Shown here: positions 28,318 to 64,000 of the stretch, piece after piece | Layout of the letters: each line of letters starts with the position of its first letter | How positions within the stretch are numbered: the stretch's first letter is position 1 | Assembly: GCA_022842465.1 (NCBI GenBank) | Contig: JALHPN010000004.1 | Location: 1 to 64,000 of the forward strand | DNA length: 64,000 nt | Source: Polyangiaceae bacterium | GTDB lineage: Bacteria > Myxococcota_A > Polyangia > Polyangiales > Polyangiaceae | Reading direction: 5' to 3' | The notes under the pieces: generated by a model | Database searches by the model: none | Seen by the model: the letters and a program-made list of their open reading frames with translations, nothing else | What the model was told of the DNA's origin: nothing | Made by a program: the position numbers and the translations under genes

Positions 28318-28330
28318 GCCCACGTCCCAC

Positions 28331-31395: not shown

Positions 31396-31548
31396 CGAGG
31401 GTACCGAGACTACCAAACACGCCGCCCGCCGTGAGCTGACGCAGCAGCTCACAGATGCGGGCAGCTTTCGGACCAGCAACGCGCGGGCACTCCAGCAAGG
31501 TGGCCCTGCGTTTGCCGTTGGATGGCACCGCCGTACACTACCCTGGCC

Positions 31549-40888: not shown

Positions 40889-40893
40889 TCTCG

Positions 40894-43800: not shown

Positions 43801-44517
43801 CTCCGTTCTGACGCGGGTGTCCTGGCGGTCGGCGAACTCCTCAGTCGACGCAGTGACTTCGACGTAGATGTGCTGATCGCTGAGCGTGTGCGCCTAGCTG
43901 CTGTCCCGAACATGAAGCACCACGTGTTCAAGGCAGAGGGCCTCCTCAAGCGCGCCGAGTGGGAGAAGACCTGGGAGCAGCAGCATCGGGAGGATTTCGG
44001 CGAGTCCGTGAAGCCGGACGTACCGCCAAAGTACTCCAAGGAAGACTTCCTCAAGAAGGAGTACTGGGACCTCCGAGGCAAGCTCGACGTCCCGAAGGAG
44101 CGCTTCATCGCGTTCACCGAGGTCCCTCCTCCCACCGGAGCGGAAACGCTCTACGCCTGGGCGGGGTGGACGCCGCGCGAGCGTGCGAAGGCGATGCTCG
44201 GTCTCGACGAGCAGCTCGAGGCCGCCGGGGTGAACGTCGCCGATCGCCACGGGCTACTCTACGGCGTGTGGTTCCTCCTCCCGTACGTTGCGTGGGAGTC
44301 CGCGGACGCTGCGCGCGACTTCCGCGCGGACGTTCGCAGCCTCGTCGGCGAGAACGGCGTGACCGAGGCGATGCTCGACGAGTGGGCCAAGCGCTTCCCG
44401 CCGCCGAAGGGAGGCAAGCCGGCCAAGCCGAAGCCCTCGCCGAGCGCGGCGCCGAAGGCGAAGAAGGGGGCGCGTGCGAAAGCGAAGGCGAAGGCGAAGG
44501 AGGACGCCGCGACGTGA
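40894..44517 (+). CDS. pglX: BREX-2 adenine-specific DNA methyltransferase PglX
   Basis: A 1207-aa N6-adenine methyltransferase that marks self DNA in BREX. The SAM motif is DPACGSG (Asp221) and the catalytic motif is NPPF (355-358). ATG at 40894 (MDQTTRKS) is 5 bp after pglW. The middle (about 41985-43500), expected to contain target recognition, is visibly less GC-rich and has different codon use from the flanks. For example 42121-42180 has 25 G/C of 60, against 42 of 60 at 41521-41580. The C-terminus ends in a Lys/Ala/Pro tail. Its stop overlaps the next start (GTGA). Confidence 0.93.
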   Translation: MDQTTRKSLTQSLSKLTVEIAAALRVPMRTPGPVQEAAQALHREEQVGEAFDLWTDLLSRRASVLWVLKSLYLRILEDRGLLQPRRILDAEDELFRHLAPNLGPTAYLRWVFRDLASARGGLPELFAPQPAELAVVPDALSQRLIDFWRSKNPDTGELLYRFDDEHFDSRLMGDLYQDLDPVVKKRYALLQTPDFVLDFILDETLTPAIAEWGVENVRVLDPACGSGHFLLAAFKRLVAGMRSKHPARPVREIVEDVLSRVVGIDLNDYACGLARARLVMTALETCRETDLAAAGTFHPRVFWADALEQVEEDEQLGLATIADDHRSAMALLTPPEVRAALRPELKKRFHVVVGNPPFDNEKDPRRREYHRSRGKSGPRYRAAAGKYSLSAPFIERAFQIASPNGWVGLITANSFMKNEFGKAVIERVLRTLDIREVVDSSGVLIPGAAIPTVILICRNRRPAAKDVLVTMGKKREPRPPEDPAKGMVWMSIALHHRAVGYDGEFISVTRVERDVLSEHPWRIGGGGAAELSAKLQEAPNVLLGEIVESIGINCFTLADEVYVRAARDWPRAGVATPSLQPMLGGETIRDWAARCDELAFFPYNEDFSPADPATPSLWRVWHYRTELANGLLFGGTTKVEGGLRWYEYGRLTPSKLASPLSIVVAEVASHNHAVLVREPTLCKQSAIVVKLDANASLDDHLLLLAQLNSSVAAFFLRQVCRDMGGGGNGRGISDEPWEVRLRLNSGKLEMVPLARPKTDARLQMFAQALDEVARERFLDAVARTIADAAPRGASALRVALETRRARDLDRLFRLVGLQEELDWLCYEFYRIDPSPDARDPNQVSPISPGWRPFEIALARREAESCSAVSRGEEPDEAPTAWFTRHGWNAETSIEAIPEAEQAIMSARLERTQANRELALLEQPTYKRRWYKPDCEREERQAMELWLDDRLEAWAKERAAPFTAAQASAALRSDAGVLAVGELLSRRSDFDVDVLIAERVRLAAVPNMKHHVFKAEGLLKRAEWEKTWEQQHREDFGESVKPDVPPKYSKEDFLKKEYWDLRGKLDVPKERFIAFTEVPPPTGAETLYAWAGWTPRERAKAMLGLDEQLEAAGVNVADRHGLLYGVWFLLPYVAWESADAARDFRADVRSLVGENGVTEAMLDEWAKRFPPPKGGKPAKPKPSPSAAPKAKKGARAKAKAKAKEDAAT

Positions 44518-46205: not shown

Positions 46206-46245
46206 GAGCGTTTAAGACCACGTTTATGACCCATCCCGACCTCGC

Positions 46246-46263
46246 TTATGCCCGCGGGCATAA
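46246..46263. promoter_or_regulatory. 18-bp perfect palindrome, candidate operator before pglY
   Basis: TTATGCCCGCGGGCATAA is fully self-complementary. The same TTTATG(C/A)CC half-site recurs in direct orientation at 46147-46155 (inside the 3' end of the upstream gene) and 46223-46231, with a variant TTTAAGACC at 46211-46219. This is the largest intergenic gap in the BREX run. Binding by the upstream AlbA_2/winged-helix protein is inferred. Confidence 0.6.
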
Positions 46264-46302
46264 AAGCGGACATAGGCGGACTACGCAGGAGCGAGAAGCG
46301 CC

Positions 46303-49300: not shown

Positions 49301-49878
49301 AGCTCAAGGTGGCGATCGCGCGCCTTGCGCCGCTCGCCAAGCAGCCGTCGGACTCGTGCGCGGTGCTCCGCGACTGGCTGAAGCTCTGGCCCGACGACAC
49401 GAGCGACCCCGTTCGAACGGCGGTTGTTCGGATCGGCGACGTCTCGGCCGCGATCGAAAAGCTGGACGAGACCGTGCGGCTCAGCCTGCGCCGCGCGACG
49501 AATGGACCACTTGGCGCCGAGGTCCAGGCTCACCTCGACGCGCTTCGAGGACTCGCGGACGCGGGCGAGCAGGAGCGGCCGCTGACCGAGCAGGCGATCC
49601 AGAAGTGGAACGAGACCGGCAAGTCGCTCCTGCACCGGGTCCTCGAACACCTCCCGCCGTCGCCGCCGCCGGTTCAGGGCGGAGGTACGCCGGGCCAGCC
49701 GCCGCCTGCGGAGCCGCACGCGACGGGACCGAGCGCACCGAAGACGATCGCGGCGACGTTCGCGGCGAGCAGCGGCGCGGAGCGCGACCGGCTCATCCAG
49801 CGCGTTCGAAGTGAGCTCGACGAGCTCGCTGATGATCAGGTCGACGTGGCGATCACCATCACTCGGAGAGGTCGCTAA
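46303..49878 (+). CDS. pglY: BREX-2 ATPase PglY
   Basis: A 1191-aa large P-loop ATPase (the BREX-2 counterpart of BrxC). Walker A is GSFGSGKSHF (71-80) and Walker B is LVLLVDEFLLWL. Further blocks include FTFVARQRNIEEFFPD and YPFHPALIEMLIDVSSLMQRDRT split by a break, both typical of PglY. GTG at 46303 follows the palindromic region. It ends in a Pro-rich linker and a short helical tail. The pglZ start is 2 bp after its stop. Confidence 0.9.
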   Translation: MTVTITQAFDLPAREDITALGFVVRLSEEEDQKLVADYVITPKVAEELPAILKAMRHTFKARTDLGRFVHGSFGSGKSHFLSFLGLMLEGKASSWAKDDPTIRALSGEHRPWLEDAKLLVVRLHMLTTTGGQGSGFDRAVYEAANAALQHRGKAPFEFLNVEGVLSEARREAELFGTQFWKRLEEAGIVGSRDEFEAMAVGAADEREALARALLQWKGRDATTAGVDPSWAVGLRKLCEHVKAQGFGGLVLLVDEFLLWLREKSGPEFERAINQLTVMVDHADGARAVPLFTFVARQRNIEEFFPDLVEERQLHEHLGHHAKRFELTELEDVELRHVCRGRVLRRRPEYEAEVSRVVDALAKDYEKILPSILQQADIGYLRDVYPFHPALIEMLIDVSSLMQRDRTALRLLYELLVIHNADLPLGKLLPVGRAFDAIFPRAGVEGSKRVEDLRAIHRTYYQRFSPAMDKMLRDAEAAKGDFDATRRGVLDTIVKTALLAEVSPRLKGTGSMSIERLVRLNDAEVTGETDRSKFNRVYQDLLDLSRIVPGAIQLSGQGKDASVSVILQGVNFGEILDRARSRVMGQKNVRLRTFYKVLLPALRLKEEKLGEKHDVEWRRTPRRGSVDVENIRELPNAAFKIRPGGEYRILIDYPWDEPGYSVADDEQRAADVRKRDGTSLTACWLPRHFTQSELAFLDDLAALEELTGSAQEELIRDFGPNERAQIVEQANNQAQNLRQSLQQKLGEVYRDHGRIVALTTGIEATVPAGELGEIIDRLARVLLDRQYPMHPAFGAKPEPETLRLLCDWLARAAEKQDQMEVFTDEEAKVLRTLGDPLELVSMGQTRAQLRLDTRYIKTVREEAKGESVLWDGIDRKLQETYALTPIVRNFFLKLLSRLDSFRVVHAVHGDLVDVEIDSKSRTQVKLVRAPLLDLPEWSRARELGPALFKAMSAPSATRTLSEQDRFARELHACTAGRRGQLQGLHERLVKDLGANGKRVEELKVAIARLAPLAKQPSDSCAVLRDWLKLWPDDTSDPVRTAVVRIGDVSAAIEKLDETVRLSLRRATNGPLGAEVQAHLDALRGLADAGEQERPLTEQAIQKWNETGKSLLHRVLEHLPPSPPPVQGGGTPGQPPPAEPHATGPSAPKTIAATFAASSGAERDRLIQRVRSELDELADDQVDVAITITRRGR

Positions 49879-49880
49879 GC

Positions 49881-52454
49881 TTGGACGCGCAGGTCATTCT
49901 CCGCAGGCTGGTGGAGATGGCGGGCGGACCTGCCGAGCGGGGGTACGTCCTCGCCCTTGCGGCCGACGGGCTACGAGACCTCCCGGCGGAGTTCGCGACG
50001 TCGAGCGGCAAGTACGCCGTCGTTCACCCGACATCGGAGATCGGGCTTCGGCACGTGTTGTGGAAGGCCGACGGCGCACCCGTCTTGGCGCTCCTTGACG
50101 AGCCGCTTGCACGTCGACTGCCCGCTGATCTCGTTCGACGCGCACGCGGGCGTCGTGTCCACGCCGTGGAGCCCGCCGAGGTGCTCTCTCTTGCGCTGCA
50201 GGTTCCCGTCGTGGGCACCGAAGACGACGACGTGCAGCGCCTCGCGATCGACAACGTGGATCGGCTCCAGGCGGCGCTTCGGGAGCGCACGCTGCCGACG
50301 GTCGTCGACCGGGAGCTCCTCGACGAGCTTCTCCTCGACGTTCTCCTCGGCAAACAGGTTCGAAAGTGCTCGTCGGGCGAGCTCCTCGCGAGCTGGTTGC
50401 GGGATCCTCCGAACTGGCCCCCGCCCGTGGCCGACCTCGTGCGGCGCCAACTTCCGAGGATGCATGGCCTCGAGGGCAGGATCCTCGCCTGGGGGACGAA
50501 GGAGCCGAAGGGCCTCGAGCCGCTGCTCGTTCACGGCGTGCTCCTCGCTCTCGAGGAGCCTGAGATCCCACAGTCGGCTTGGGGAGCTCTCTGGAACGGC
50601 CCGCGCGCGCTCGGTCTCACCCTCGAGACCTTCCGCACGGCGGTCTCAGGGCTCGCTCGGCAGACCGTCGATTTCCTCGGTGCAGATGCCACCGCGTACC
50701 TCAAGAAGGCAGAGAGCGTCGCCACGCGGGTGCTCACTCCTGCCGTGCTTGCAAGGAGCCGCGATCTTCCGCTCGGCCTCGACAACCTGTGCCACGAGCT
50801 CGTGAAGGAGATGTCCTCTGGCGACGCGGTAAGCCACGTCGCCATCCAGGACATGCAGCGTCACCGGTATGCCACCGCACGTGCGGGCGAGATCGCGGTG
50901 CTCGAGCAGATGGCGCGCCTGTCGCGGTACCTCGCGGCACCTCCCGTCTCGCCCACGGCGTGCGTCCTCGAGCGAGTGCGCGCCTACCAGCGCGATGGGG
51001 CATTCGCCGATTGGGCGGCGGCACGCCTTCGGACGGCGCTTGCGAAGAGCGCCTCGTTCCGCAAGGAGGCCGGCCGAATTCTGGATCGGTATCGGGAGCG
51101 CCGGGACGAGGAGAACCTCGCTTTCGCAGAGGCCCTGCGCGCGGACTACAAGACGGCCCTCTACTCGAGCGACTGCATCGCGCTTCCGCGGATCTGGCGT
51201 CACGCGCCCGTGCACCTTGCGAACGAGAAGAAGCAGAAAAAGCTGTTTCTCGTGGTTCTGGACGGGTGCAGCTACCCCGTCTTCCTGCGCCTCGTCGCCG
51301 AGCTTGCGAACGACATCGCACCGCTCGGGTTGAGGGTCGATCCTGCGTCGCAGCAGGCGCACGGCGCGCCGGCGTTGTCGATCGTCCCCACGATCACCAG
51401 CCATGCCCGTAGCGCGATTTTCCTCGGTGAGGTTCCGAACGATCCGTGGATCGCTGAGACGATCTGGCGAGATTCGAAAGAGTCTGCGACCGATCCTGCG
51501 CGCTTCAAGCAGAACACCTCGCTCGGTAGTCGTTCCCGCAAACTGTTTCTGAAGGGCGATCTCGCGGACCACGGCGAAGGGCTCTTTGCCGCCCTACGAG
51601 ACGACGCGATCGACGTCGTTGCTGCCGTCTTCAACGCGGTGGACGATCAGATCGGCTCCAGCAACACCGGGGCTGTCGTGACGGTTCGCGCCGAGGAGAT
51701 CAGCATGTTCATCCCCAGCCTGCGCGAGGGCATCCGTGCAGGGCGGCGGGTCATCGTCACTTCCGATCACGGGCACACGCCCTTCTGGAGCAAGGATCTC
51801 CGTGTCAGCGACGGCGCCTCTGCACGCTACCGGACACTCGAGGGGAAGGACCCGGCGCCCGAGGGGTTCATCGAGATCGATGAGGGCGGACACGGCGGCG
51901 GCGCCGGACGAAAGGCGTACGCGTGGAAGATGGGCGTCTACCAGGGCAAGCCCCAAGTCGGGTTCCATGGTGGATGCTCTCTCGAAGAGATGGTCGTCCC
52001 TCTCGCCGAGCTCGCAGAGGGCGGTGTCGCGGCGGATGAGCCCGCGTGGTGGTACGGGGGAGCGAGCGCGGCGGGCAAGACGCCGGCCCCAGCGAAGGTG
52101 GCCGTTGCGGCCGTGGCCGTGGCGCCCATCAGCCCCAAGGTCGTTCAAGGAGACTTGTTCGATCCCGGACCGCTCCTCGCGACAACGGTCGAGCGTATCG
52201 GTCTACCGGGTGCCCTTCGAGCGCAGCTCGATCCGTCCGAGCTCGCGGCGCTGGCGTGCGTCTTCAGCAACCAGAACGCCCGCATCTCGGACATCGCCCA
52301 GGCGCTCCGGCGACCGAAGGCGCGCGTCCCCGGCCTCATGTCGCGCCTCGTCGGCAAGCTCCATGCGGGAGGCTTTCCGTGCCTCCGCCGGCAACCCCTC
52401 CCTGACGGTGAGGATCAGTACGTCTACGTCCGCCAAGGAACGGAACGCACATGA
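49881..52454 (+). CDS. pglZ: BREX-2 alkaline-phosphatase-superfamily protein PglZ
   Basis: An 857-aa protein. The catalytic-domain motifs are LFLVVLDGCSYPVFLRL (metal Asp), IVPTITSHARSAIF (nucleophile Thr region), VIVTSDHGHTPF (metal Asp/His) and a late VGFHGGCSLEEMVVPLAEL, the PglZ signature. PglZ is common to all BREX types. The start is a TTG at 49881 preceded by GGAGAGG about 9 nt upstream inside pglY; no better ATG exists before the conserved N-terminus. Its stop overlaps the brxD ATG by 4 bp. Confidence 0.92.
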   Translation: MDAQVILRRLVEMAGGPAERGYVLALAADGLRDLPAEFATSSGKYAVVHPTSEIGLRHVLWKADGAPVLALLDEPLARRLPADLVRRARGRRVHAVEPAEVLSLALQVPVVGTEDDDVQRLAIDNVDRLQAALRERTLPTVVDRELLDELLLDVLLGKQVRKCSSGELLASWLRDPPNWPPPVADLVRRQLPRMHGLEGRILAWGTKEPKGLEPLLVHGVLLALEEPEIPQSAWGALWNGPRALGLTLETFRTAVSGLARQTVDFLGADATAYLKKAESVATRVLTPAVLARSRDLPLGLDNLCHELVKEMSSGDAVSHVAIQDMQRHRYATARAGEIAVLEQMARLSRYLAAPPVSPTACVLERVRAYQRDGAFADWAAARLRTALAKSASFRKEAGRILDRYRERRDEENLAFAEALRADYKTALYSSDCIALPRIWRHAPVHLANEKKQKKLFLVVLDGCSYPVFLRLVAELANDIAPLGLRVDPASQQAHGAPALSIVPTITSHARSAIFLGEVPNDPWIAETIWRDSKESATDPARFKQNTSLGSRSRKLFLKGDLADHGEGLFAALRDDAIDVVAAVFNAVDDQIGSSNTGAVVTVRAEEISMFIPSLREGIRAGRRVIVTSDHGHTPFWSKDLRVSDGASARYRTLEGKDPAPEGFIEIDEGGHGGGAGRKAYAWKMGVYQGKPQVGFHGGCSLEEMVVPLAELAEGGVAADEPAWWYGGASAAGKTPAPAKVAVAAVAVAPISPKVVQGDLFDPGPLLATTVERIGLPGALRAQLDPSELAALACVFSNQNARISDIAQALRRPKARVPGLMSRLVGKLHAGGFPCLRRQPLPDGEDQYVYVRQGTERT

Positions 52455-53797
52455 CGCCGATCGCACCGGACCTCGCTCGTGACATCGTCTCCGCTCTCCG
52501 CGCCGGCGTGGTTCCCCGCACGGGCCTCGAGTACTACGCCACGGGCCTCGATCTCCTGCTTCCCGTGGTGGAAAGCGAGCTCGACGAGGTCGCCTCGGGC
52601 GAAGGCCGTGGTCGCTCCAAGTGGGTACGGGGCGAGTACGGCACCGGAAAGACCTTCGCCACGAGGCTCATCTCCGCTCGCGCACGAGCGAAGCGCTTCG
52701 CGACGACCGAGGTGCAGATCTCGATCAACGACACGCCGCTGCACCACCTCGAGACCGTCTACCGCCGGATGATGGAGCGTCTCTCCACCGACGCTCACGG
52801 TGAAGGAGCGTTCCGCGCCGTCGTCGATGCGTGGCTCTACGAAGTGGGCGACGAGGTCACCCGGCTCAAGGGGATCACCGAGGACGACCCGCAGTTTGCG
52901 GCGCTGCTCGAGACGCGTCTGGAGGAGAAGCTCGCGGAGCTGAGCACGCGCAACCCCGCCTTCTCTCAGGTTCTACGCGCCTACAGCCGCGCCATGCAGG
53001 AGGGCGACTTCCAGGGAGCCCAGGGTTTGTTGGCCTGGCTCGCAGGGCAGCCCCACATCGACCGCTCGATCACCTCTCGTGCAGGTGTGAAGGGCGCTGT
53101 CGACGGGCAGGCGGCCCTCACGTTCCTACGTGGCGTACTCACGGTCCTTCGCCAAGCGGGACACGCGGGTCTCGTCGTCGTGCTCGACGAGGTGGAGACG
53201 ATCCAGCGGATGCCGCCTCCGACGAGGGAAAAGTCGCTCAACGCCCTTCGTCAGCTCGTCGACATGCTCGCCAACAACGAGCTCCCCGGCCTCTACCTCA
53301 TCGTCACGGGCACGTTCGCCTTCTTCGACGACTACAAGGGACTGAAGGGCCTCGCGCCTCTCTACCAACGAATCGCGACGCGCTTCGAAGCCGATCCGAC
53401 GTTCGACAATCTGCGCGCGCCCCAGGTGCGCCTGCCCGCCTTCGACGAGGTTCGCCTCCTCGAGGTCGGCCGTCGCGTGCGGGATCTCTTCCCGGCACAG
53501 CACGCGGAGCGCAAAGCGCAGCGCGCCAACGACGCGTTCCTCGCCGCACTCACCAAAAAGGTCGCGACCGGTTTTGGCGGTAAGGTCGCCGTCGCCCCCC
53601 GAATCTTCCTGCGTGAGCTGGTCGATGTCCTCGACAAGGTCGACCAGTACGACAACTACGATCCCGCCAAGCAGTACGATCTCAAGCTCGACGAAGCCGA
53701 GCTGACGGCCGAGGAGCTCGCCGCACGCCGAGGCGAGGAGCCGGCGGCCGCTGGAGACGCCGGCGCTGACAAACCCAAGAAGCGCCTCGACGGGTAG
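52451..53797 (+). CDS. brxD: BREX-2 ATP-binding protein BrxD
   Basis: A 448-aa P-loop protein (DUF2791 type). Walker A is GEYGTGKT (61-68) and Walker B is LVVVLDEVETIQRMP. FYDDYKG-like FFDDYKGLKGL and the APRIFLRELVDVLDKVDQY end are characteristic of BrxD. It is thought to work with BrxHI as a DNA-translocating pair in type 2 BREX. It overlaps pglZ by 4 bp and is followed after 5 bp by brxHI. Confidence 0.9.
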   Translation: MTPIAPDLARDIVSALRAGVVPRTGLEYYATGLDLLLPVVESELDEVASGEGRGRSKWVRGEYGTGKTFATRLISARARAKRFATTEVQISINDTPLHHLETVYRRMMERLSTDAHGEGAFRAVVDAWLYEVGDEVTRLKGITEDDPQFAALLETRLEEKLAELSTRNPAFSQVLRAYSRAMQEGDFQGAQGLLAWLAGQPHIDRSITSRAGVKGAVDGQAALTFLRGVLTVLRQAGHAGLVVVLDEVETIQRMPPPTREKSLNALRQLVDMLANNELPGLYLIVTGTFAFFDDYKGLKGLAPLYQRIATRFEADPTFDNLRAPQVRLPAFDEVRLLEVGRRVRDLFPAQHAERKAQRANDAFLAALTKKVATGFGGKVAVAPRIFLRELVDVLDKVDQYDNYDPAKQYDLKLDEAELTAEELAARRGEEPAAAGDAGADKPKKRLDG

Positions 53798-53802
53798 CGG
53801 CG

Positions 53803-56571
53803 ATGGTGGGCGACATCGCAGCTTCGAGCTTCTTCCGCCTGCACCCGAACTTGCAGCACGCCATCGTGCATGACCTCGGGTGGCGTTCGTTGCGGCCTGT
53901 CCAGGAGCTCGCCGGTGATGCGATCCTCGATGGGCGCAACTCGGTGATCTTGGCGCCCACGGCCGGCGGCAAGACGGAGGCGAGCATCTTCCCGATCGTC
54001 TCGCAGATCCTGAGCGAGCAGCTCCGTCCCGTCGCGGCGCTCTACATCTGCCCGATCCGCGCGCTCCTCAACAACCAAGAGGATCGCATCCAGCGCTACG
54101 CGCGGATGGTCGGCCTCGACGCCTTCAAGTGGCACGGCGACGTGGGAACGGCGGCGCGCACTCGCTTCGCGCGCGATCCGGCCCACATCCTCATGATCAC
54201 GCCCGAGTCGCTCGAGGTGATGCTCATCGGGCAGCGGCGTGAAGCCCGCGAGCTCCTCAAGGGGCTTCGTACCGTCATCATCGACGAGGTCCACGCCTTC
54301 GCCGCCGACGACCGCGGCGCTCATCTCGCGAGCCTGATCGAGCGGCTCGTGCAGCTCACCGGCTCGGACATCCAGCGTGTCGGACTGTCGGCGACGGTCG
54401 GGAACCCGCAGGTCATCGGGCAGTGGCTCCAGGGATCGAGCCGTCGGGCGTTCCGCCTCGTCGACCCCCCAAAGCCTCCAACGCGCCGAGAGCTCCACGT
54501 CGACTTTCGTGATGGGGTAGGCGCAGCTTCAGCGGCCATCAGTCAGATGTCTCGGGGGAAGAAGAGCCTGGTCTTCGTCGAGAGCCGCTCTCGCGCCGAG
54601 CAAGTCGCCCAGGCGATGACAGGCACGGGCGTCGAGGTGTTCATCCACCACAGTGCGGTGAGCCGAGCCGACCGCGCGCTAGCCGAGTCGCAGTTCACGA
54701 GCGGGCAGAACACGGCGATCGTGTGCACGTCGACGATGGAGCTTGGGATCGATGTCGGCGATCTCGATCAGATCGTTCAGGTCGACGCACCGAGCAGCGT
54801 CGCGTCGTTCCTGCAGCGGATAGGACGCACGGGCCGCCGGGACGACACTCATCAGAACTGCACCTTCGTGTGCCTGACGCCCGAGTCGCTGCTTCAGTCC
54901 GTGGCGATCCTGCGGCTCGTCAACCAAGGCTGGGTAGAAGACGTGCGGCCCGCAGCGCAGGCGATGCACGTGCTCGCGCATCAGATCATGGCGCTGTCGC
55001 TCCAAGAGGGCGGGATCTCGCGCCATCAGCTCTTGCCTTGGGTCGATTCGGCCTACCCCTTCACGAGCATTCGCGAGGAGCGCGTGCAGGAGCTCGTGAA
55101 CACGATGATTGAACGGCAGATCCTCCACGAAGCGGACGGGCTGCTCTCCTTGGGTCAACGCGGTGAGCGGCTCTACGGCCGCCGCAACTTCTTCGAGCTG
55201 TATGCGGTCTTCACGGCGCCGCCGATCCTCCGCGTGACGCACGGACGAGAAGAGGTGGGCTCCGTGCAGTCCCTCTTCGTCTCGATGCACGACCGTGAGA
55301 AGGGCCCGCTCTGCTTTCGCCTGGCCGGTCGCGCGTGGGAGGTCGAGAACGTCGACTGGTCGAAGGGCCTGCTCGAAGTGCATCCCGCCGCGCAGGGGCG
55401 CGTCCCGAGCTGGATCGGCATGCCGAGCCTCCTCTCGACGAAGCTCTGTCAGACGATGCTCGACGTCCTGATCAATCCGGGGCCCGAGGCGGACTGGCTC
55501 AGCGCGGACGCCGCCGGGCAGCTCGCACAGCTACGTGAGGGATATGAGGGCCTGCTAGCCGAAGGCACCGCCCCGATGGAGGAGGACGCCGACGGGGTCC
55601 GCTGGCACACGTTCGGCGGCGGGGCAGTCAACCGCCTGCTCGGCGCCGGCCTCGAATCGGTCACGGGGCGCCGGTGGACCGCCGGGAACCTTTCCATCCA
55701 CTGCAAGGAGGTTGGCCTTTCCGACGCGACGACGGCTGCCCGCGCTCTCCCCGGGCTGGACTGGGAGCGCGTCGCCTCTACCGCCGCGCACGCCATGGCG
55801 CGGGGGATGGTGAGCAAGTTCCAGCCGTGCCTCCCGGAGGATGCCGAGGACCGCTTGCTCGCCGAGCGCCTCTTGGACATCGCGGGGGCCCTTCGGTTTC
55901 TCGCCACGACGAGCGTGAACGGCACGCGGCCGGCGACCCGCCCCGCGGGCCTTCGGCTCGTCGATGCCGAGGCGCACGGCCCCGGGCTACAGCTCGAGCT
56001 GCCGGTCAGGCCCGGCGCGCCCCAGCGTGGGATCAAGAACCCCGTTCAGTGGGTGGACACGCCCGCGGCACTGCGAGAGGTGGCAAGCGAGCTCCGCGCG
56101 ACATCGACCGTAGGCCTCGACGTCGAGACGGCGCTCGACTTCGGCACGCTCTGCCTGATCCAAGTCGCGACGGCGACGAGGACCTACCTCATCGACCCGT
56201 TCGCTGTCGGATCGCTCGACCCAGTCCGCGAGTTGCTGACAGGGTCGACGCCGATCAAGGTGATCCACAATGCTCGATTCGAGCAGCGCGTGCTCGCCGC
56301 GTTGGGGATCGAGCTCGGAGGCGTGTTCGACACCTTGGAGGCGTCACGTCGTGTCCACGGTCGCGAGGTGCTCGGCGGCCATAGCCTCGCGATGGTGTGC
56401 GAGCGGGAGCTCGGCTTCACGCTCGACAAGGGCGAGCAGACGTCGAACTGGAGCCGGCGTCCGCTCGATGCGGAGCAACTCCGGTACGCGGCGCTCGACG
56501 CCGAGGTGCTGTTGGCGTTGTACGAAAAGCTGACCGTGGGCAATCGCCCGCTCGTCGATGGGGGAGCATAG
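53803..56571 (+). CDS. brxHI: BREX-2 Lhr-like helicase BrxHI fused to RNase D-like exonuclease
   Basis: A 922-aa protein. The helicase part (about 1-720) has Walker A APTAGGKTEA (51-60), DEVH in IIDEVHAFAADDRG, SATVGNP, and QRIGRTGRR in the second RecA domain, which identifies an Lhr-like superfamily 2 enzyme. The C-terminal about 180 residues add a DEDDy-type exonuclease: VGLDVE (Asp773, Glu775), IHNARFEQ (822-828, with Glu827 where Asp is usual) and YAALD (Tyr895, Asp899). Typical BrxHI proteins end before this extension. It follows brxD by 5 bp. Confidence 0.88.
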   Translation: MVGDIAASSFFRLHPNLQHAIVHDLGWRSLRPVQELAGDAILDGRNSVILAPTAGGKTEASIFPIVSQILSEQLRPVAALYICPIRALLNNQEDRIQRYARMVGLDAFKWHGDVGTAARTRFARDPAHILMITPESLEVMLIGQRREARELLKGLRTVIIDEVHAFAADDRGAHLASLIERLVQLTGSDIQRVGLSATVGNPQVIGQWLQGSSRRAFRLVDPPKPPTRRELHVDFRDGVGAASAAISQMSRGKKSLVFVESRSRAEQVAQAMTGTGVEVFIHHSAVSRADRALAESQFTSGQNTAIVCTSTMELGIDVGDLDQIVQVDAPSSVASFLQRIGRTGRRDDTHQNCTFVCLTPESLLQSVAILRLVNQGWVEDVRPAAQAMHVLAHQIMALSLQEGGISRHQLLPWVDSAYPFTSIREERVQELVNTMIERQILHEADGLLSLGQRGERLYGRRNFFELYAVFTAPPILRVTHGREEVGSVQSLFVSMHDREKGPLCFRLAGRAWEVENVDWSKGLLEVHPAAQGRVPSWIGMPSLLSTKLCQTMLDVLINPGPEADWLSADAAGQLAQLREGYEGLLAEGTAPMEEDADGVRWHTFGGGAVNRLLGAGLESVTGRRWTAGNLSIHCKEVGLSDATTAARALPGLDWERVASTAAHAMARGMVSKFQPCLPEDAEDRLLAERLLDIAGALRFLATTSVNGTRPATRPAGLRLVDAEAHGPGLQLELPVRPGAPQRGIKNPVQWVDTPAALREVASELRATSTVGLDVETALDFGTLCLIQVATATRTYLIDPFAVGSLDPVRELLTGSTPIKVIHNARFEQRVLAALGIELGGVFDTLEASRRVHGREVLGGHSLAMVCERELGFTLDKGEQTSNWSRRPLDAEQLRYAALDAEVLLALYEKLTVGNRPLVDGGA

Positions 56572-56573
56572 AG

Positions 56574-56711
56574 ATGGCGTCGAGACGACGAGCTTATCCG
56601 CTCGTAGATTTTACATGTGCTGCACTGCGCAGGGCTAGGTGGTCGACCACCGACGCGTGGCGAGCCGTCGAGCGAATGATCGCGTTTCTACCTGCCGAGG
56701 GCAGTGCGTGA
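56574..56711 (+). CDS. possible 45-aa small protein
   Basis: An ATG 2 bp after the brxHI stop opens a 45-codon frame ending TGA at 56709-56711. That stop overlaps the GTG of the next gene (GTGA), the same coupling seen elsewhere in the run. A purine-rich GGGGGAG lies just upstream. The product is basic and probably helical (TTDAWRAVERMIAFL). It is absent from known BREX sets as far as I can recall. It could be spurious, since in this GC-rich DNA short frames are common. Confidence 0.35.
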   Translation: MASRRRAYPLVDFTCAALRRARWSTTDAWRAVERMIAFLPAEGSA

Positions 56712-58630
56712 AGCTGGCGAAGGAAGCCCCCTCGCGACTCCAGGCACTCTCGAGCCTGCTCCTCTCGGTGCCCGATCGGTACCGAAAAAACGAGGACTTC
56801 TTTCGGGCAATCCGCAGGTTCGTGGGGGCGTCGACGCCGGAGGAGCGCGAGACTGCTCTCGGTGACCTCAACGTCTGGGCCCTGCGAAAGCAGATCGAGG
56901 CGGAGACGGAGGGGGCGGAGGGGGCCGCCAAGGGCTTTGCCAAGACGCTGCTCGATGTGCACCCCGAAATCGTCGTGCATGCGCGCCGGGTCCCCCACCT
57001 TGGAGCGCTCGCACCCTTGGCCCCTCTCCCCGCAACACGCTGGGACTACGTGCGCCTGCTACTGCGGACGCTTCTTGAGATGAAGCAGCAGCAACCCGGA
57101 CTTGGTCTCGGCAGCTCCACGTTCGGGATCAACCATGGCAAGTCGTCCCTCTCCGGGCTTGAGATCGCGCAGGCGTGGTCCGTGCTCGGTGGCTACGGTC
57201 ACCTCTTCGGAACCTTCGCGACGGAGCGCGGTGTGCTGTTTGCCCTCGACTCCGACTCAGGTCTGGAGCGTCGGTTCGTGAGCCAGCTTGCAACCGACCT
57301 GCGAACCGCCGGTGAAGATGTCCTTCGGCGACGCGATCTGTATCGCACGTTCTACGTCCTGGCGGGCTGGCGCGCCTCTCGTTGGTCGGGGTCGGCAACC
57401 AGGACGACGGCCCTCCTCCTTCTTCGCAACCTGCTGTCGCCGCCTCCGGACGCAACATGGACGCGTTTGCTCTGGGCGTTCCGGCGGGCGCGCCAGATCG
57501 CCTATACGCGGCTGCACTCGATGCTCGGCGTGTCGATCGCGAGCTCCCCCATCCCGATCCCAAGGGCGGTTCGAGAACTCCGCCCGTTGTCGCAGATCTC
57601 GTTCTTGAACGAGGAGACGGAACCGCGAGGCGCCGTGGCTGGCCTTATTGACGCGCTCGACCGGTTCTACGGCGACGTGTTCTTTACGTCACCAGTGGCG
57701 AGCGAACGCGTACTCAGACACTTGAAGGAGTTCAAGCTCTGGTGGCAGGCGTCGAGCGCCAACCTCGAGGAACGGCTTGAGGCACTCGCCTCCGAGCCGG
57801 TCGATTGGCCAACCTCGAGCACGCCAACCCGCGCTCACTTCGCGCGACTCCATGTGCCTGACGGTGGGATCGGATGGACGAATGAGGTCCGGCAGTGGTT
57901 GAGAGATGGCAACGACACGTGGGACGGCGGCAACTTTCTCATCACGCCGTCGCGCCGCCGGGGTGACGAGTGCAGCGTGGTCGATCTCTACGTCCAGGGT
58001 CCGCCAACGCCGCGGCTCGTTGCTCACGTCGCCTCCATCCTTGCCGCACGCAACGAAGCAACGTGGGCGGCCGCGCAATCAACCCAGGGCACGAGCCGCG
58101 ATCTTTGGCGCTCAGTTGCCGGCTTCGGACTAAGCCTGTTCCAGCTCCTCCTCGCGAAGGGACGGCTAGCGCAGCTCGAACCGGTGTCGGCTGATGGCGG
58201 TGTCGGGCTCGCAATCGCCGCGACGTCGGCGACGTCGGGCTGCGGGCGGATCCATGGCTTCGCGCAACGAGTCGATGAGGAGGCCCGCCGCGCGGAGCTA
58301 GATGCACTGCGCGAGGTCGCCCTGCGGGTGGCGCCACGTGACGCCGTCTGGTTCGCGTTTCTCGGGCGCCTCCGCATCTTGGACGAGGAGTCGGGGAGGC
58401 CGCTCCAGGAGCTCGACGGGATCTTCGCACTGATCGGACGGACCGGTATCGAGTGGCACTTCGTCGAGCACAAAGGCGGCGATGCGGGAGGCATGCGAGG
58501 GCAGCTCGATGAGCTCGCACGTCATCTTGCGGTTGCGGTACCCGCCTGCGACTTCGTCTCCGTCGCCAACGGGAAGGCGGCCCATACAGCAGTGCTCTGG
58601 CCCGCGGCTCCTGCGGAGGAGGGCGTCTGA
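56708..58630 (+). CDS. unknown protein with C-terminal PD-(D/E)XK-like nuclease signature
   Basis: A 640-aa protein with GTG start at 56708. The first about 540 residues have no recognised domain and look largely helical. Near the C-terminus the segment ELDGIFALI (Asp570) and then WHFVEHKGG (Glu587-His588-Lys589), followed by a helix with Gln (GQLDELARHL), gives the D...ExK layout of PD-(D/E)XK nucleases. The assignment rests on this pattern only. Its TGA overlaps the ATG of the following gene by one base. It is first large gene of the set after brxHI. Confidence 0.6.
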   Translation: MKLAKEAPSRLQALSSLLLSVPDRYRKNEDFFRAIRRFVGASTPEERETALGDLNVWALRKQIEAETEGAEGAAKGFAKTLLDVHPEIVVHARRVPHLGALAPLAPLPATRWDYVRLLLRTLLEMKQQQPGLGLGSSTFGINHGKSSLSGLEIAQAWSVLGGYGHLFGTFATERGVLFALDSDSGLERRFVSQLATDLRTAGEDVLRRRDLYRTFYVLAGWRASRWSGSATRTTALLLLRNLLSPPPDATWTRLLWAFRRARQIAYTRLHSMLGVSIASSPIPIPRAVRELRPLSQISFLNEETEPRGAVAGLIDALDRFYGDVFFTSPVASERVLRHLKEFKLWWQASSANLEERLEALASEPVDWPTSSTPTRAHFARLHVPDGGIGWTNEVRQWLRDGNDTWDGGNFLITPSRRRGDECSVVDLYVQGPPTPRLVAHVASILAARNEATWAAAQSTQGTSRDLWRSVAGFGLSLFQLLLAKGRLAQLEPVSADGGVGLAIAATSATSGCGRIHGFAQRVDEEARRAELDALREVALRVAPRDAVWFAFLGRLRILDEESGRPLQELDGIFALIGRTGIEWHFVEHKGGDAGGMRGQLDELARHLAVAVPACDFVSVANGKAAHTAVLWPAAPAEEGV

Positions 58631-59985
58631 TGGTCGCTCACGCCCCCGTGCTCTTGCTCCATCCACGACCGACGGAGCTTCTCTACTGGTCAGCCCCGCT
58701 CGCGGCCGATGGGGACTTTTCACCAGAGGACCCCCTCGCGCTCGACTACATCGGCCAGCAGGTCGGTAACGTGCTCCTCCCGACGCTCACGACGCGGACG
58801 AGCCGGGCTCAGAGCTACGTCGTGGTGCTCTTCGGGCTTCGTCTCGCGGAGACCATGCGCGTAGAGCTCGGCCTGCCCGCAGACGACGGCACGCGCGTCG
58901 CGCTCTTCGAGCGATGGGAGCGCTTCTGGTGCCTTTCGGTGCTCGAGTCGCGCAACGGGCCTCTGCCTCGCGGGGATGAGGACGCCATGCGCGGGATCCG
59001 TGGTGCGAGCCGAGCATGGTTCGCGGGGGACACGCCGCTGCCGCTCGACTTCTCGCTCATCAGCCGTCAATCGGAGCTGGGCTCGCTCGGCGCGTACCTC
59101 TCGTCGCTGCGCGCATCGGGACTGGTCACGCCTGGCACGCTCCGCCCGACCAATCTCGCGACCGAGATCCTCGACGCGTTCTGGGACGAGCCCGAGGCGA
59201 ACGCCAACACGAAGGCTTTCGACGAGTACGCGCACCTCGCGCTCGACCCGTCGTCCAACAGGATCCATCGAAAGCTGGCCAAGGTGACGCTGCGAGGCGT
59301 CGGCGAACGAACACGGCTCAGCTGCTTGCGCGCGCGCGATCGCAAGGCTCAACAAAGTCGCCTCTACGACGCGCTCTTCGCGCGCGTCCGTGACGACAGC
59401 ACGCCGGTTGTTGGTCGCCTCGTCGAACGAGCGATCAAGCAAGGCGTCTCCGATCCGCGCACCTTCTTCGCGGGTGCAGCGGATGGAAGGTATGGATCCG
59501 TGGAAGAGGAGCTCAAGGAGCGCCTCCGCTTCGCGTGGGCGTTCTCCGCCGCTGCCAAGCACTGGCTCGACGCGTTCAATGCCGTCTACAATGAGGCGTG
59601 GAAGGGCGACGGACTCGTCCCGCGCAAGCGCGTCGAGGCCCGACTCAACAGCCGCTTGCCCGACCTCGCGCAGGCGTCGAAGCGCTTGCTCGACGAGCCT
59701 GGCATCGTCCACCTCCGACGCCTGCCCGTCCACGGAAAGGGCTTCGTCGAGCTCGCTTCCTGCGGAGCTACGGCGGGCGCTCCGGCGATCCTCGATGAGC
59801 TCCTTGCCTTCCACGCACGCGTTCAGCACGATCGCCGCGGCGCGAGGGGCTGGATCGGCCTGGAAGGCGACCGAGTCAGCGTTGAGCTTTCGTCGTACAC
59901 GGGGCACCGAGGCGAGACCGCCTATCCGTCGCTCAAGTTCGATGTCGTGCGCTCCCTCCTCCGCGATCTGGGGCGCCTTCCATGA
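58630..59985 (+). CDS. unknown protein of the post-BREX cassette
   Basis: A 451-aa cytosolic protein. No known domain was recognised. The N-terminal part has LALDYIGQQVGNVLLPTLTT and SYVVVLFGLRLAETM, and the middle is helical with basic stretches (LKERLRFAWAFSAAAKHW). It overlaps the preceding gene by 1 bp and the following PLD gene by 4 bp (ATGA), so it is almost certainly expressed with them. It may be the cassette's specificity or scaffold subunit. Confidence 0.6.
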   Translation: MVAHAPVLLLHPRPTELLYWSAPLAADGDFSPEDPLALDYIGQQVGNVLLPTLTTRTSRAQSYVVVLFGLRLAETMRVELGLPADDGTRVALFERWERFWCLSVLESRNGPLPRGDEDAMRGIRGASRAWFAGDTPLPLDFSLISRQSELGSLGAYLSSLRASGLVTPGTLRPTNLATEILDAFWDEPEANANTKAFDEYAHLALDPSSNRIHRKLAKVTLRGVGERTRLSCLRARDRKAQQSRLYDALFARVRDDSTPVVGRLVERAIKQGVSDPRTFFAGAADGRYGSVEEELKERLRFAWAFSAAAKHWLDAFNAVYNEAWKGDGLVPRKRVEARLNSRLPDLAQASKRLLDEPGIVHLRRLPVHGKGFVELASCGATAGAPAILDELLAFHARVQHDRRGARGWIGLEGDRVSVELSSYTGHRGETAYPSLKFDVVRSLLRDLGRLP

Positions 59986-62138
59986 ACCTCGGAAGCGCGC
60001 GCGCGGCCGACCGGCTCGTGGTCGAGGGCAGATGCCTCGGCGCGATCTTTATGTCCTACACGTTCGATCCGCTCTTCTTCGAGGAGACGATCCTCCGCTC
60101 CGTCCTCCGACTCCAGAGCGATCCCGTCGAACAGCAAGCCCGCTTTCTCGATGAGGCGCGCGCTGCGCTCATCGAGACCCCCGTAGCCTGCATCGTGGAT
60201 GCGTCGATGCGGATGCCCGGCAAGCGCATGCCGTACGACCTGCTCGAGGTGACCACACGGACGTTTCATCCGAAGGTGGCCCTCCTCCTCTTCGACACCT
60301 TCGCGCGCGTGCACGTCGGGTCCGGGAATCTCACGCGCGGCGGATACGGCGACAACTCCGAGCTCTTCGTCACGACGGATCTGGCGTACGACGATGGCGC
60401 GTCGGCGGGCCTGCTTCGCGAGCTGGACGCGTTCTTCGAGAGGGTCTCCGGGCTCGCGCGCACGCGGGGCACGCAGCTCGATCTCGTCCGAGCTGAGCTC
60501 GGCCGGCGAATCGTGAGCACACCTTCTTCGGGCGCCGCTAGCCTTGCCCTTCTTCACACCGAAGCCGACACGCCGATCCTCGAGCAGCTCCTCCGACTCG
60601 TCCCCGAAGACGCCAGGATCACACGCGTCGGCGTCCTCGCCCCGTTCTTCGAAAAGGACGACCTCTCGACCGGTGCGGAGATGCGTTCCGTCCTCGGTCG
60701 GCTCGCGACGAGTCGAAAGTCCAAGGACCTGGTGCTCGACATCGGAGTCTCCTGGGACGATGCCGCCGCGGTCGCGAAGCCCGAAGGAGCGGCGCCGAGC
60801 TTCGACGCTGCTGTCGGTGCACTCTGGGCGCGCGTCGAACACGCGGATGACGAGGAGCAGATCGTCCACTACACGCTCGATGGCCTCTCGGCGCAGCAGC
60901 TTCGTGTTCGAGACGCGCGTAGGGTACCCCGGCGCATGCCGCGCGACTTGCTCGAGCAGATGCTCGCGGACGGCAAGACGTGGTCGACACCACGACCGCG
61001 TGTCTTCGCGCCGGCGGCGCTGATCGACGCCGTCGCCGACCTCGCCGATCTCCGGCCGTGGCTCTACCCGACATGGACGCTCGACGACGGGAGGCGGATT
61101 CATCGTCCACTCCACGCGAAGCTCCTGCTCGTCAGCTACGTGCGACGAGGTAGGGCACAGACGCTCGCGCTCGTCGGATCTCCTAACGCGTCGAAGCACG
61201 CCCTCCTCCAGACCCACGCGGATGGCGCGAACGTGGAGCTCGCTCTCGCCATCCTTCTCGATGGCGAGGTGTGCCTCCCCGACGTGGCGACGCCACTCGT
61301 GGCGTGCGACGCCGGCGCCATCGACTGGGCGGAGCGGAGCTTTCCAGACCTGCCGCCCAACCTCGCGATGTGCATCGAGAGCGCGACGTACGATCCGAAG
61401 GCGGCGTCCCTCACGATCGCCTGGGCCGCGCCTTCACCGTACCCGCTTGGTACATGGTCGCTCCGGTACAACGGGGAGCTACTCGGATCGGGCACGGGCC
61501 TCCCGGATGCGCCCACGGTCGTGCAGCCCTTCAACCTGGCTGCGTCGACGAGTGAGATCGAGCTGTTGACCGCGTCGGGCAGTTTCTTCGTCCCCATCTT
61601 CGTGACGGATCTCGTCGCGCTCCCGTCGAATCCGACCGGCCCGTCGCTGAGCCTCGCTGAGCTGCTCATGCTTCTTTCTCGGCGGATCACGATTGAACGC
61701 CTCGAGACCGTGCGGGCAGCTTCACGGACGAGCGGCGATGCCAGCGCGCTAGACGAGCTCTTCGGGGAAGGGTTCGCGCCCACGGACGTCTTCAAGGCGT
61801 GGTGGGCATCGGCGCGGGACCTCGCAGAGCCTGGACGCTCGCTGCCGTCCTTCCGCCGCCTCCTCGAGGGCCCGACTGGCCTTGCCGGCGCCTGGAGCGC
61901 GCTACGGGACGCTGCGGAAAGGGGAGACGAGGTGCGTCGAGAGGAGGGCTGGTTCTACGGAGCCGAGCTCCTTCGCACGCTCGAGCGACTCGAGCTCCCC
62001 GAAGACGCGAGCACCGTAGAGAAGCACGCGTGCGTGGACGTATTCACCGCAAGGCTCCGGGAAGCGCTCTCCGACCTCGCACCTGCCGGAGCCACCTGGG
62101 TGAAACGCGTGGCGAACTTCTACGGGGTGGCGAAGTGA
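59982..62138 (+). CDS. phospholipase D-like (two-HKD) nuclease-family protein
   Basis: A 718-aa protein. Two HKD-type elements are visible: FHPKVALLLFD with GSGNLTRGG (His96, Lys98, then GSGN 113-116), and LHAKLLLV with GSPNAS (His378, Lys380, GSPN 399-402). Spacing resembles the PLD/Tdp1-like nuclease superfamily, used by restriction and defence nucleases. The Asp of the second motif is not obvious. The start overlaps the previous stop, and its own stop overlaps the helicase GTG (GTGA). Confidence 0.75.
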   Translation: MNLGSARAADRLVVEGRCLGAIFMSYTFDPLFFEETILRSVLRLQSDPVEQQARFLDEARAALIETPVACIVDASMRMPGKRMPYDLLEVTTRTFHPKVALLLFDTFARVHVGSGNLTRGGYGDNSELFVTTDLAYDDGASAGLLRELDAFFERVSGLARTRGTQLDLVRAELGRRIVSTPSSGAASLALLHTEADTPILEQLLRLVPEDARITRVGVLAPFFEKDDLSTGAEMRSVLGRLATSRKSKDLVLDIGVSWDDAAAVAKPEGAAPSFDAAVGALWARVEHADDEEQIVHYTLDGLSAQQLRVRDARRVPRRMPRDLLEQMLADGKTWSTPRPRVFAPAALIDAVADLADLRPWLYPTWTLDDGRRIHRPLHAKLLLVSYVRRGRAQTLALVGSPNASKHALLQTHADGANVELALAILLDGEVCLPDVATPLVACDAGAIDWAERSFPDLPPNLAMCIESATYDPKAASLTIAWAAPSPYPLGTWSLRYNGELLGSGTGLPDAPTVVQPFNLAASTSEIELLTASGSFFVPIFVTDLVALPSNPTGPSLSLAELLMLLSRRITIERLETVRAASRTSGDASALDELFGEGFAPTDVFKAWWASARDLAEPGRSLPSFRRLLEGPTGLAGAWSALRDAAERGDEVRREEGWFYGAELLRTLERLELPEDASTVEKHACVDVFTARLREALSDLAPAGATWVKRVANFYGVAK

Positions 62139-64000
62139 CGGTCCCGACGCTCGAGGAGCTTCGAACGTTCCTCCACCTGGGCGCCCGTGGAGAGAAGGAC
62201 GGCGTTCCGACCGGCGACGTGGAGCGGCAGGAGCAGACGGTTCTCCGCGCGCTGGAGGTGCTCGAGGACCGCCCCGGTGTGGTCCTCGCGGACGAGGTCG
62301 GCATGGGCAAGACCTTCGAGGCGCTCGGGGTCCTGGCTGCTTTTCGCCACGCAAATGCGAAGGCGCGCGTGGTCATCCTTACGCCGGGACCGGACCTGAA
62401 CCGGAAGTGGCTGAGCGAGCTGCGACGGTTCGGTGAGGGAGACGCGTGCGTCTACGACTTCAGCGGAACGTACGGTGGTGGCAAGAGCATCCGCGATCTC
62501 GTGGAGGTGCTCGAGCGGCACTCCGTCGCGGTCGCCCCGATCACGGCTTTCGACGCCGTGCGCGGGCTCAGCGATCGCTCCTACCTCCTGAGCCTCTTCT
62601 TCGACTGGAAGGGGATGCACGGCAACGCCGCGAACGGCGCCATCGATCGCCTCGCGAGAGCAGGGCGCAGAATCAGCCGAGTCGACGTCCGCACCGAGCA
62701 GTTCCTCGACACGTTCTCTTTCGGACGGATCGAGCGACACTTGGACTCGGCCTTCCGGGGCGGGCGGGCGCACGCCAAGGACGCGCTCGATCGCCTTTAC
62801 AACGAGATGGGTCAGGGACTCTTCGACCACCCCGAGCTCGTGAAGCGAGGGCTCGAGGTGGCGAAGTTCCGGCTCGTGCGCGCGCTCCTACCGGACATCG
62901 ATCTGCTCATCGTCGACGAGGCTCACAAGCTAAAGAATGCGGACGGTGTGCGCGTTCAGGGCGTGCTGACGGCGTTTCGGCGGAAGTTCGCCAAGGCGCT
63001 GTTCTTGACGGCCACGCCATTCCAGCTCGACGTGGGCGAGCTTCGTCAGGTCTTCCGCCTCTTCGAGCACGCGAAGACGGCCCCCCCGAGCCTGGCCGAG
63101 GAGGCCGAGTGCCTGATCGCCGACGTGCGCGACTACCAACTCGCGTGCGATGGCCTGATGGATGCTTGGTCGATGCTCGACGCCGCAGGGGCGGCCGAGT
63201 TCCGGCGTCACTACGAGGCGCACCCCGATCTCTCGAAACCGCTCGAAGACCCGGAGTTGGAGGCTGTCGCGAAGCGCATTCGAGAGGTGCGGCGGCGAAA
63301 GGACGAGCGCATCGAGCCCGCGTTTCGGACGTGGATGATCCGGAGCCTCCGCGAGGAAAAGCGCGTCTACCGAAAGCACGATAAGCGCGAGATCGTGCCG
63401 CGCGGGGCCTCGGCGATCCCGTTCTTGCTGTACGAACGTCTGATCGCGGAGCTCTTTCGCTCGGGTGACGGGACGCACAAGGCCGCCGTCGAAATCAATC
63501 TGGTCTCGTCGTACGGCGCCGCGCGTGAAGGGGCGCTCCTGGCAGATCACACGCGGACGCTCGGGCCGGAGGCACAGGCCTATCGCGACGTTCTCCGAGA
63601 CGTCCTTTCCGCGCCCGACGTTTCGGGGGACGCCGCGGACGAAACGACGGAGCGGCATCCGAAGCTCGAGTGGGTGCTGGAGGATGCGCTCGACGCGGCG
63701 GAGCGCGGAGAGAAGACGCTTGTTTTCTGTGCACGCACGGCGACGATCCGTGAGCTCGGAGCCGAGGCCACCCGGCGCTGGAGGACGCGCCTCCTCCGCC
63801 GCTGGCAGCGTGGCCTTCCCGACGCAACGCTCGCCGATGTCTTCGGAGAGTCGGACGACGACGAGCGGAGCCGAGGTCGTCATGCCCTGCTCCGCGGTCG
63901 CTTCCGCGCGCAGTACATCTTGTACCTCGGCCTGCGCGAGCGTTACCTCCGAACGCTGGTGCCCGCGGCCGCCTTCGCGGAGGACAACCTTGCTGCACTC
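62135..64000 (+). CDS. SNF2-type DNA helicase/ATPase (3' end outside window)
   Basis: The frame opens with GTG at 62135, overlapping the PLD stop, and runs off the right edge. The superfamily 2 ATPase motifs are VVLADEVGMGKT (Walker A), LLIVDEAHKLKN (DEAH box) and LTATPF (motif III), in the spacing of SNF2 enzymes, with an insertion of about 150 residues between motifs Ia and II. The second RecA domain begins after about residue 500 (LVFCARTATIRELG). It is probably the motor of a nuclease-helicase system with the PLD protein. Confidence 0.82.
   Translation, partial: MTVPTLEELRTFLHLGARGEKDGVPTGDVERQEQTVLRALEVLEDRPGVVLADEVGMGKTFEALGVLAAFRHANAKARVVILTPGPDLNRKWLSELRRFGEGDACVYDFSGTYGGGKSIRDLVEVLERHSVAVAPITAFDAVRGLSDRSYLLSLFFDWKGMHGNAANGAIDRLARAGRRISRVDVRTEQFLDTFSFGRIERHLDSAFRGGRAHAKDALDRLYNEMGQGLFDHPELVKRGLEVAKFRLVRALLPDIDLLIVDEAHKLKNADGVRVQGVLTAFRRKFAKALFLTATPFQLDVGELRQVFRLFEHAKTAPPSLAEEAECLIADVRDYQLACDGLMDAWSMLDAAGAAEFRRHYEAHPDLSKPLEDPELEAVAKRIREVRRRKDERIEPAFRTWMIRSLREEKRVYRKHDKREIVPRGASAIPFLLYERLIAELFRSGDGTHKAAVEINLVSSYGAAREGALLADHTRTLGPEAQAYRDVLRDVLSAPDVSGDAADETTERHPKLEWVLEDALDAAERGEKTLVFCARTATIRELGAEATRRWRTRLLRRWQRGLPDATLADVFGESDDDERSRGRHALLRGRFRAQYILYLGLRERYLRTLVPAAAFAEDNLAAL

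Follow-up and report, generated by a model that had tools for sequence, protein, structure and literature searches.

A conserved P2-P3-P4 cassette beside type 2 BREX in a Polyangiaceae genome, probably a divergent clade of the PDC-M27/Azaca architecture

Introduction

Four large genes follow the last gene of a type 2 bacteriophage exclusion (BREX) set in a Polyangiaceae bacterium, and the question raised by this locus is whether they serve BREX or form a system of their own. The window, meaning the whole 64,000-nucleotide stretch of DNA analysed here, corresponds to bases 1-64000 of a contig of 115,989 bases (C4, JALHPN010000004.1) in a genome of 9.57 Mb. PADLOC and Pfam scans place the type 2 BREX set (pglW, pglX, brxC/pglY, pglZ, brxD and brxHI) in 36797-56571. 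A sequence-only reading of the window took the four genes that follow, designated P1 to P4, for an undescribed defence module attached to BREX: a nuclease-helicase system with two extra subunits. Our comparisons with other genomes lead to a different partition. P2-P3-P4 is a conserved unit, P1 lies outside it, and the unit is probably a self-contained anti-invader cassette that represents a divergent clade of the PDC-M27/Azaca architecture, in which a helical A subunit is combined with a phospholipase D (PLD) nuclease B and an SNF2 translocase C. The genes concerned are as follows.

brxHI: 53803-56571, plus strand; final gene of the type 2 BREX gene set
P1: 56639 or 56708 to 58630, plus strand; probable PD-(D/E)XK-type protein, outside the conserved cassette
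P2 (A subunit): 58630-59985, plus strand; 451 amino acids (aa), cassette core
P3 (B subunit): 59982-62138, plus strand; PLD-superfamily protein, 718 aa
P4 (C subunit): 62135-64000 in the window, continuing to contig C4:65107, plus strand; SNF2-family translocase, 990 aa

As described from the sequence alone, the four genes run in the same direction with overlaps of 1 bp (P1/P2, TGATG), 4 bp (P2/P3, ATGA) and 4 bp (P3/P4, GTGA). The stop codon of brxHI is at 56571, and P1, which does not overlap this gene, begins 67 bp (GTG at 56639) or 136 bp (GTG at 56708) past it. The window ends inside P4, at 64000, leaving 1.1 kb of the gene outside. Short open reading frames that overlap these genes in other frames were regarded as shadows.

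The P2-P3-P4 cassette is conserved as a unit

A search with P2 over 377 genomes of the phylum returned matches in 15 of them, a number that counts the genome of the window. A pattern-seeded scan of a species-genome collection yielded 10 loci from 100 pattern matches, and PLSDB contained one further locus on a Methylocystis plasmid. After duplicates were merged (L022 = L038, L027 = L046), 16 close-clade loci outside the window were available for comparison, and in 13 of them P2, P3 and P4 occur in this order on one strand. The hosts of these 13 cassettes belong to the Myxococcota, Planctomycetes, and Alpha-, Beta- and Gammaproteobacteria; no P2 was found in phages, and among the weak P2 matches no cassette gene was seen at L017/L034, whereas those at L029-L033 form the distant group treated below. 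The 13 cassette loci are listed below.

L023, L024, L025, L026: complete P2-P3-P4
L038: Enhygromyxa salina
L039, L040: Planctomycetes metagenome-assembled genomes (MAGs)
L041: Nevskiaceae MAG
L042, L045: Myxococcus, ~93% DNA identity to each other
L043: Caballeronia
L044: proteobacterial MAG, P3 in two open reading frames (ORFs)
L048: Methylocystis plasmid, P4 spanning the record start, 37% identity

Gene coupling is conserved along with gene order, as 22 of the 26 junctions in the 13 cassettes have an in-frame ATGA or GTGA overlap. This holds for P2/P3 in 12 of 13 cassettes (L048 has TGATG) and for P3/P4 in 10 of 13; in L025, L042 and L045 an in-frame P4 start would give a 14-bp overlap with P3, and the P3/P4 frame of L048 was worked out by hand. 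Pairwise protein distances of P2, P3 and P4, calculated for the window and 11 of its 13 relatives (L044 and L048 were left out), correlate with a Mantel r of 0.94 in all three comparisons (0/2000 permutations each), which supports a unit without proving it, since shared host descent could also yield such a correlation. P2-P3-P4 is thus a conserved unit whose recurrence is beyond chance, and the expectation that these genes travel together outside the window was borne out for three of the four, in 13 other loci, P1 not being included.

P3 and P4 carry the signatures of a PLD nuclease and an SNF2 motor

The DEAH helicase, two-HKD and D…ExK signatures recognised in the sequence-only reading are all present, and those of P3 and P4 are kept in the aligned close relatives. 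P3 contains two HxK…GSxN halves, HPK (60267)…GSGN (60318) and HAK (61113)…GSPN (61176), both retained in 11 aligned close relatives; the second half reads GSxN throughout, four distant relatives included. Its PADLOC matches at E<=0.01 are confined to ZacB (4e-12), PDC-M27B (7.4e-5, over 134 residues and thus part of the profile) and, marginally, DrmC (0.0042), for which reason Mokosh was rejected as an assignment for P3. The PLDc_2 match is likewise marginal (0.0025, under the Pfam cut-off).

The SF2/SNF2 motifs of P4 comprise motif I (DEVGMGKT at 62291), the DEAH box (62912), TATP (63008), and motif V and QRxGRxxR, motifs V/VI lying beyond the window. They are kept in 12 aligned close relatives; DEAH becomes DEIH in the distant L032 and DEFQ in ZacC. 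The PADLOC results for P4 comprise the best 25 of 45 matches, among which the top families are PDC-M27C (1.6e-46, in three stretches), DrmD (2.8e-25) and ZacC (6.1e-25). A sequence search of solved structures matched P4 to RapA (3.6e-13) and gave nothing useful for P1, P2 or P3.

P2 links the cassette to PDC-M27

Azaca consists of ZacA (DUF6361), ZacB (PLD) and ZacC (SNF2), and PDC-M27 of subunits A, B and C. Distant relatives of P2 match PDC-M27A at four loci (L029, 3.8e-13; L030, 2.2e-17; L031, 1.7e-21; L033, 8.9e-19), and in each of these the A gene is followed by a PLD and then an SNF2 gene, as identified by blast in L029, L030 and L033 and by ORF order plus tblastn in L031. The same A-B-C order on one strand is present in the window and its 13 relatives. 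In hhalign comparisons, the P2 clade reached 97.3% with L029+L030+L031+L033 (reversed-alignment control, 0.1%), 98.8% with L029+L031+L033+L032 (E 8e-17, 360 columns) and 98.4% with L032 alone. At profile-profile probabilities of 97-99%, P2 is therefore assigned as a distant homologue of PDC-M27A. It differs from that family in being too divergent for the PDC-M27A model, so that the homology appears only from profile to profile, and in motif details (EDPLALDY/TTRT.RAQ here versus SRDPLG/TTVT). The description of the module as undescribed is accordingly true in part: P2 has no PADLOC, NCBIfam or above-threshold Pfam match, but the best family for P4 is PDC-M27C, and the A-PLD-SNF2 order occurs in PDC-M27-like loci and in an Azaca locus. 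Through P4 and the gene order, the set half matches a named system.

Several observations weigh against this placement. For P2, PADLOC and NCBIfam gave no match and Pfam a sub-threshold one (DUF3363, 0.0032), and the protein by itself matches neither the PDC-M27A nor the ZacA model in PADLOC at E<=0.01. An AlphaFold2 model built from nine sequences is mostly helical (predicted local distance difference test score, pLDDT, 74; pTM 0.67), and Foldseek searches of the PDB (best E 0.42) and of the BFVD viral models (best 0.71) returned nothing at E<=0.001. Fold assignment of P2 thus gave nothing convincing, and an adaptor role for this protein is a guess as a result. The comparison is based on one Azaca locus and four PDC-M27A-matching loci, and in the PLD proteins of the distant L029, L031 and L033, as well as in ZacB, the first GSxN has a degenerate form (xSxN). 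Finally, a truncated P2 alone is left in 3 of the 16 close loci (L027, L028 and L047). Comparison of L047 with L042, both from Myxococcus, reveals that ~6.06 kb is gone, from within P2 to 8 bp short of the P4 end (L047:9941-10492 versus L042:9944-16507), with identities of 93% left and 94% right of the gap. L047 keeps the first ~147 codons of P2 and lacks, in addition, 6.9 kb that L042 has upstream of this gene; the cassette has therefore been lost nearly whole in this strain.

The cassette is probably not a dedicated BREX effector

It is unlikely that P1-P4 constitute an auxiliary effector of four subunits that serves type 2 BREX exclusively and uses PglX methylation for self/non-self discrimination, appealing as the arrangement in the window is: all genes share one strand, the gap after brxHI is short and the subsequent overlaps are 1-4 bp. 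No sigma-70-like promoter above chance was detected in 53700-63999, and terminator-like sites in this interval number 3 versus 4.7 in shuffles, which is compatible with read-through from brxHI into the cassette and proves nothing at ~67% GC. The cassette, lying 3' of the type 2 BREX set, may be co-transcribed with it. In addition, distant A/B(/C) relatives adjoin type I restriction-modification (RM) genes in L031 and L032, as does a tentative A-like and PLD gene pair in L093. The other cassettes do not share this arrangement, however: in the flanks examined, some of which are shortened by contig ends, a BREX or type I RM gene was detected at 0 of 13 (L040 and L029 match PglW merely at the level of a kinase, with 26-27% identity). 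The reverse comparison agrees. At E<=1e-60, brxHI has relatives in 35 of 188 genomes, a number that counts the genome of the window, and among the 20 brxHI loci examined, of 45 places besides the window, none contains P1, P2 or P3 (one, L075, ends at brxHI). We therefore rejected a BREX-dedicated effector as the general case and regard BREX beside the cassette as incidental, so that the proposed attachment to BREX does not extend to the other cassettes and brxHI loci examined.

The genes 3' of brxHI vary among relatives, as judged from eight scanned proteins in five hand-chosen loci of the 20, and this side of brxHI therefore looks like a variable slot. The products encoded there are a TmtA-like protein (L073:4905-10514), a dynamin-like LeoA (L091:5810-7555), a MoxR-vWA pair (L078:5865-9114), a vWA protein (L082) and a sub-threshold NACHT protein (L077).

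In the excerpted text of PMC12839542, auxiliary nucleases of BREX are catalogued and no cassette like P2-P3-P4 is named, while HKD nucleases are assigned chiefly to two settings, BrxL of type 1 BREX and the helicases of type 2 BREX-related (BR) systems. The same excerpts describe an HKD nuclease coupled to a Swi2/Snf2 helicase in BR systems, a likeness to the cassette, but there the HKD part is mostly fused to the helicase and the core is DUF499/DUF3780, whereas the window has separate genes, and neither DUF499 nor DUF3780 was found in the genes scanned.

P1 probably belongs with modification systems

P1 contains an LDG…EHK motif with D593, E610 and K612 (D at nt 58415, ExK at nt 58466), and this D…ExK is kept in 3 of 3 aligned sequences, the window's included. 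There is no PADLOC or NCBIfam match, the best Pfam match is sub-threshold (0.072), and no nuclease family model of Pfam or NCBIfam was matched; the single-sequence structure model is too poor to be used for the fold (pLDDT 39.8). Matches to P1 were obtained in 3 of 376 other genomes of the phylum (1.8e-75, 1.2e-10 and 8.7e-5, the third at L037), and none was found in viral contigs and plasmids. The closest homologue (L035) is encoded inside a type I RM operon, flanked by hsdR and hsdM, and the second (L036) is separated from a type II RM pair by ~3 kb that contains other ORFs. P1 is absent from the examined flanks of 13 of 13 other P2-P3-P4 cassettes, and we rejected it as a fourth subunit on this ground. 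What stands of the proposed nuclease-helicase system with two extra subunits is thus a PLD-SNF2 module with one, P2; the four-gene set does not hold together. Because one homologue is embedded in a type I RM operon, another lies near type II RM genes and the D…ExK is conserved, P1 most likely acts either as a restriction-type effector or as a partner protein for modification systems; it is coupled here to P2 by 1 bp. We regard it as a probable PD-(D/E)XK-type protein and accessory of modification-based systems, placed between BREX and the cassette.

The cassette is probably neither Azaca nor DISARM

The cassette could also simply be Azaca, which we consider improbable. The Azaca locus L052 (ZacA, E 1.1e-122, equivalent to DUF6361, 2.6e-53) has its three genes in the identical A-B-C order with the same types of partner, P3 and P4 match ZacB and ZacC as given above, and a possible short N-terminal motif, D.(L/M)G…PG.(T/S)…TR.R, is common to part of the A subunits. 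However, the PDC-M27C score of P4 exceeds its ZacC score by 71 bits; compared with the one Azaca locus, P2 and P3 have no blastp match under E 0.01 and P4 matches in the helicase motifs alone. The A subunits are not demonstrably homologous: hhalign of the P2 clade against ZacA stays at noise with single or few sequences (0.8% and 0.3%) and rises only when PDC-M27A-matching proteins and L032 are added, to 38% in 45 columns located at the N-terminal motif (reversed control, 0.7%). Two further results caution against relying on the ZacA link, namely that the PDC-M27A group alone gives 26% with ZacA while aligning a different region (the C-terminal half), and that a value of 95.9% comes from a comparison in which L032 was grouped with ZacA, and is circular in part. 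L032 itself matches ZacA at 4.2e-5 over 49 residues. Kinship of P2 with ZacA is therefore no more than suggestive. PLD-like domains are given for Mokosh and Azaca in the excerpted text of PMC10952713; our literature search returned 'pdc-m27' in no paper among the matches listed and found no paper with DUF6361.

A stripped DISARM-type module (DrmC plus DrmD) is a far-fetched and here rejected explanation of P3-P4, for although it would also pair a PLD protein with an SNF2-like helicase, P4 finds its top NCBIfam match (109.9 bits) and its second-best PADLOC family in DrmD, and P3 has the marginal DrmC match, the P4 score is far under the DrmD cut-off of 610, P2 has no DISARM match, DUF1998 (DrmB) is missing from P1-P6 and the scanned brx genes in Pfam, as the sequence-only reading had observed, and there is no separate DrmA among the scanned genes, the DrmA match within the best 25 of 45 being to P4's own helicase region alone (8.7e-21).

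Genomic surroundings

The cassette after BREX likely lies in a defence island. GC content falls from 0.73-0.75 to ~0.67 near 30 kb (window about 28000-32000) and does not recover across the BREX genes; this drop may mark the left border of the island. A PDDEXK_13 restriction-endonuclease-like protein (2.7e-80) is encoded on the minus strand at window 33730-34863, upstream of pglW, and an ORF of 748 aa is located at window 43959-46205, between pglX and brxC. The window's brxHI product has a C-terminal 3'-5' exonuclease domain in Pfam (DNA_pol_A_exo1, 3e-35, residues 748-911, window 56044-56535); several other brxHI relatives have ~700 aa, and the PADLOC BrxHI model (925 positions) covers the window's protein.

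On the 3' side of P4, a gene for a protein with a VPA1262-family N-terminal domain (NF040700, 2.3e-47) and a PLD-like stretch overlaps the gene of a 628 aa protein for which no matches were obtained. This pair (L002:5204-8679 = contig C4:65204-68679) is possibly a further defence pair. It is followed on the opposite strand by a gene for a 1087 aa Dsr1-like protein (4.1e-15; L002:8744-12007 = contig C4:68744-72007) and by a tRNA-Ser gene (anticodon tga; L002:12239-12326 = contig C4:72239-72326), which together form a possible right edge of the island.

Elsewhere in the same genome, on contig C6, the tentative second A-like and PLD pair (L093:5587-9772) directly follows type I RM genes; the A-like product (545 aa) matches ZacA weakly (5.7e-4), and the other (852 aa) has a sub-threshold PLD match. 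In another Myxococcota genome (G004:C17), the brxHI locus L088 and the Azaca locus L052 are ~24 kb apart.

Proposed mode of action and implications

By analogy with PLD-SNF2 pairs, the P4 motor would load on invading double-stranded DNA and track along it, with P2 as an adaptor or sensor that couples motor to nuclease and gates the latter. P3 would then cut the foreign DNA, using one active site assembled from its two HxK/GSxN halves; PLD-type chemistry needs no metal ion. The three proteins may act as a complex directed at incoming DNA, and their role could be anti-phage. Of the 13 cassettes, 11 have no methyltransferase of the kinds tested next to them; on the Methylocystis plasmid an unclassified one occurs ~7 kb from the cassette, and L026 has a weak match to it. 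Self/non-self discrimination is therefore likely intrinsic and could depend on DNA ends, replication intermediates or foreign modification, with P2 as the obvious candidate for this function. In a broader and tentative scheme, which we think may well not hold, Azaca, PDC-M27 and the present clade would be branches of one large unrecognised three-subunit superfamily (a helical A subunit with a DUF6361-like N-terminal motif, PLD and SNF2) that repeatedly docks beside BREX or type I RM genes, and P1 would be a transferable PD-(D/E)XK effector for BREX and type I RM alike.

Reading P2-P3-P4 as a divergent clade of the PDC-M27/Azaca architecture would add a new clade to the PLD-SNF2 systems, compact and widespread, for which the models applied in this analysis would give no complete name. 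It would link PDC-M27 and possibly Azaca, so far separate entries, via their unexplained A subunit. The Myxococcus pair L047 and L042 provides a natural deletion remnant for functional work, and adjacency to BREX in one genome does not make the cassette a BREX accessory.

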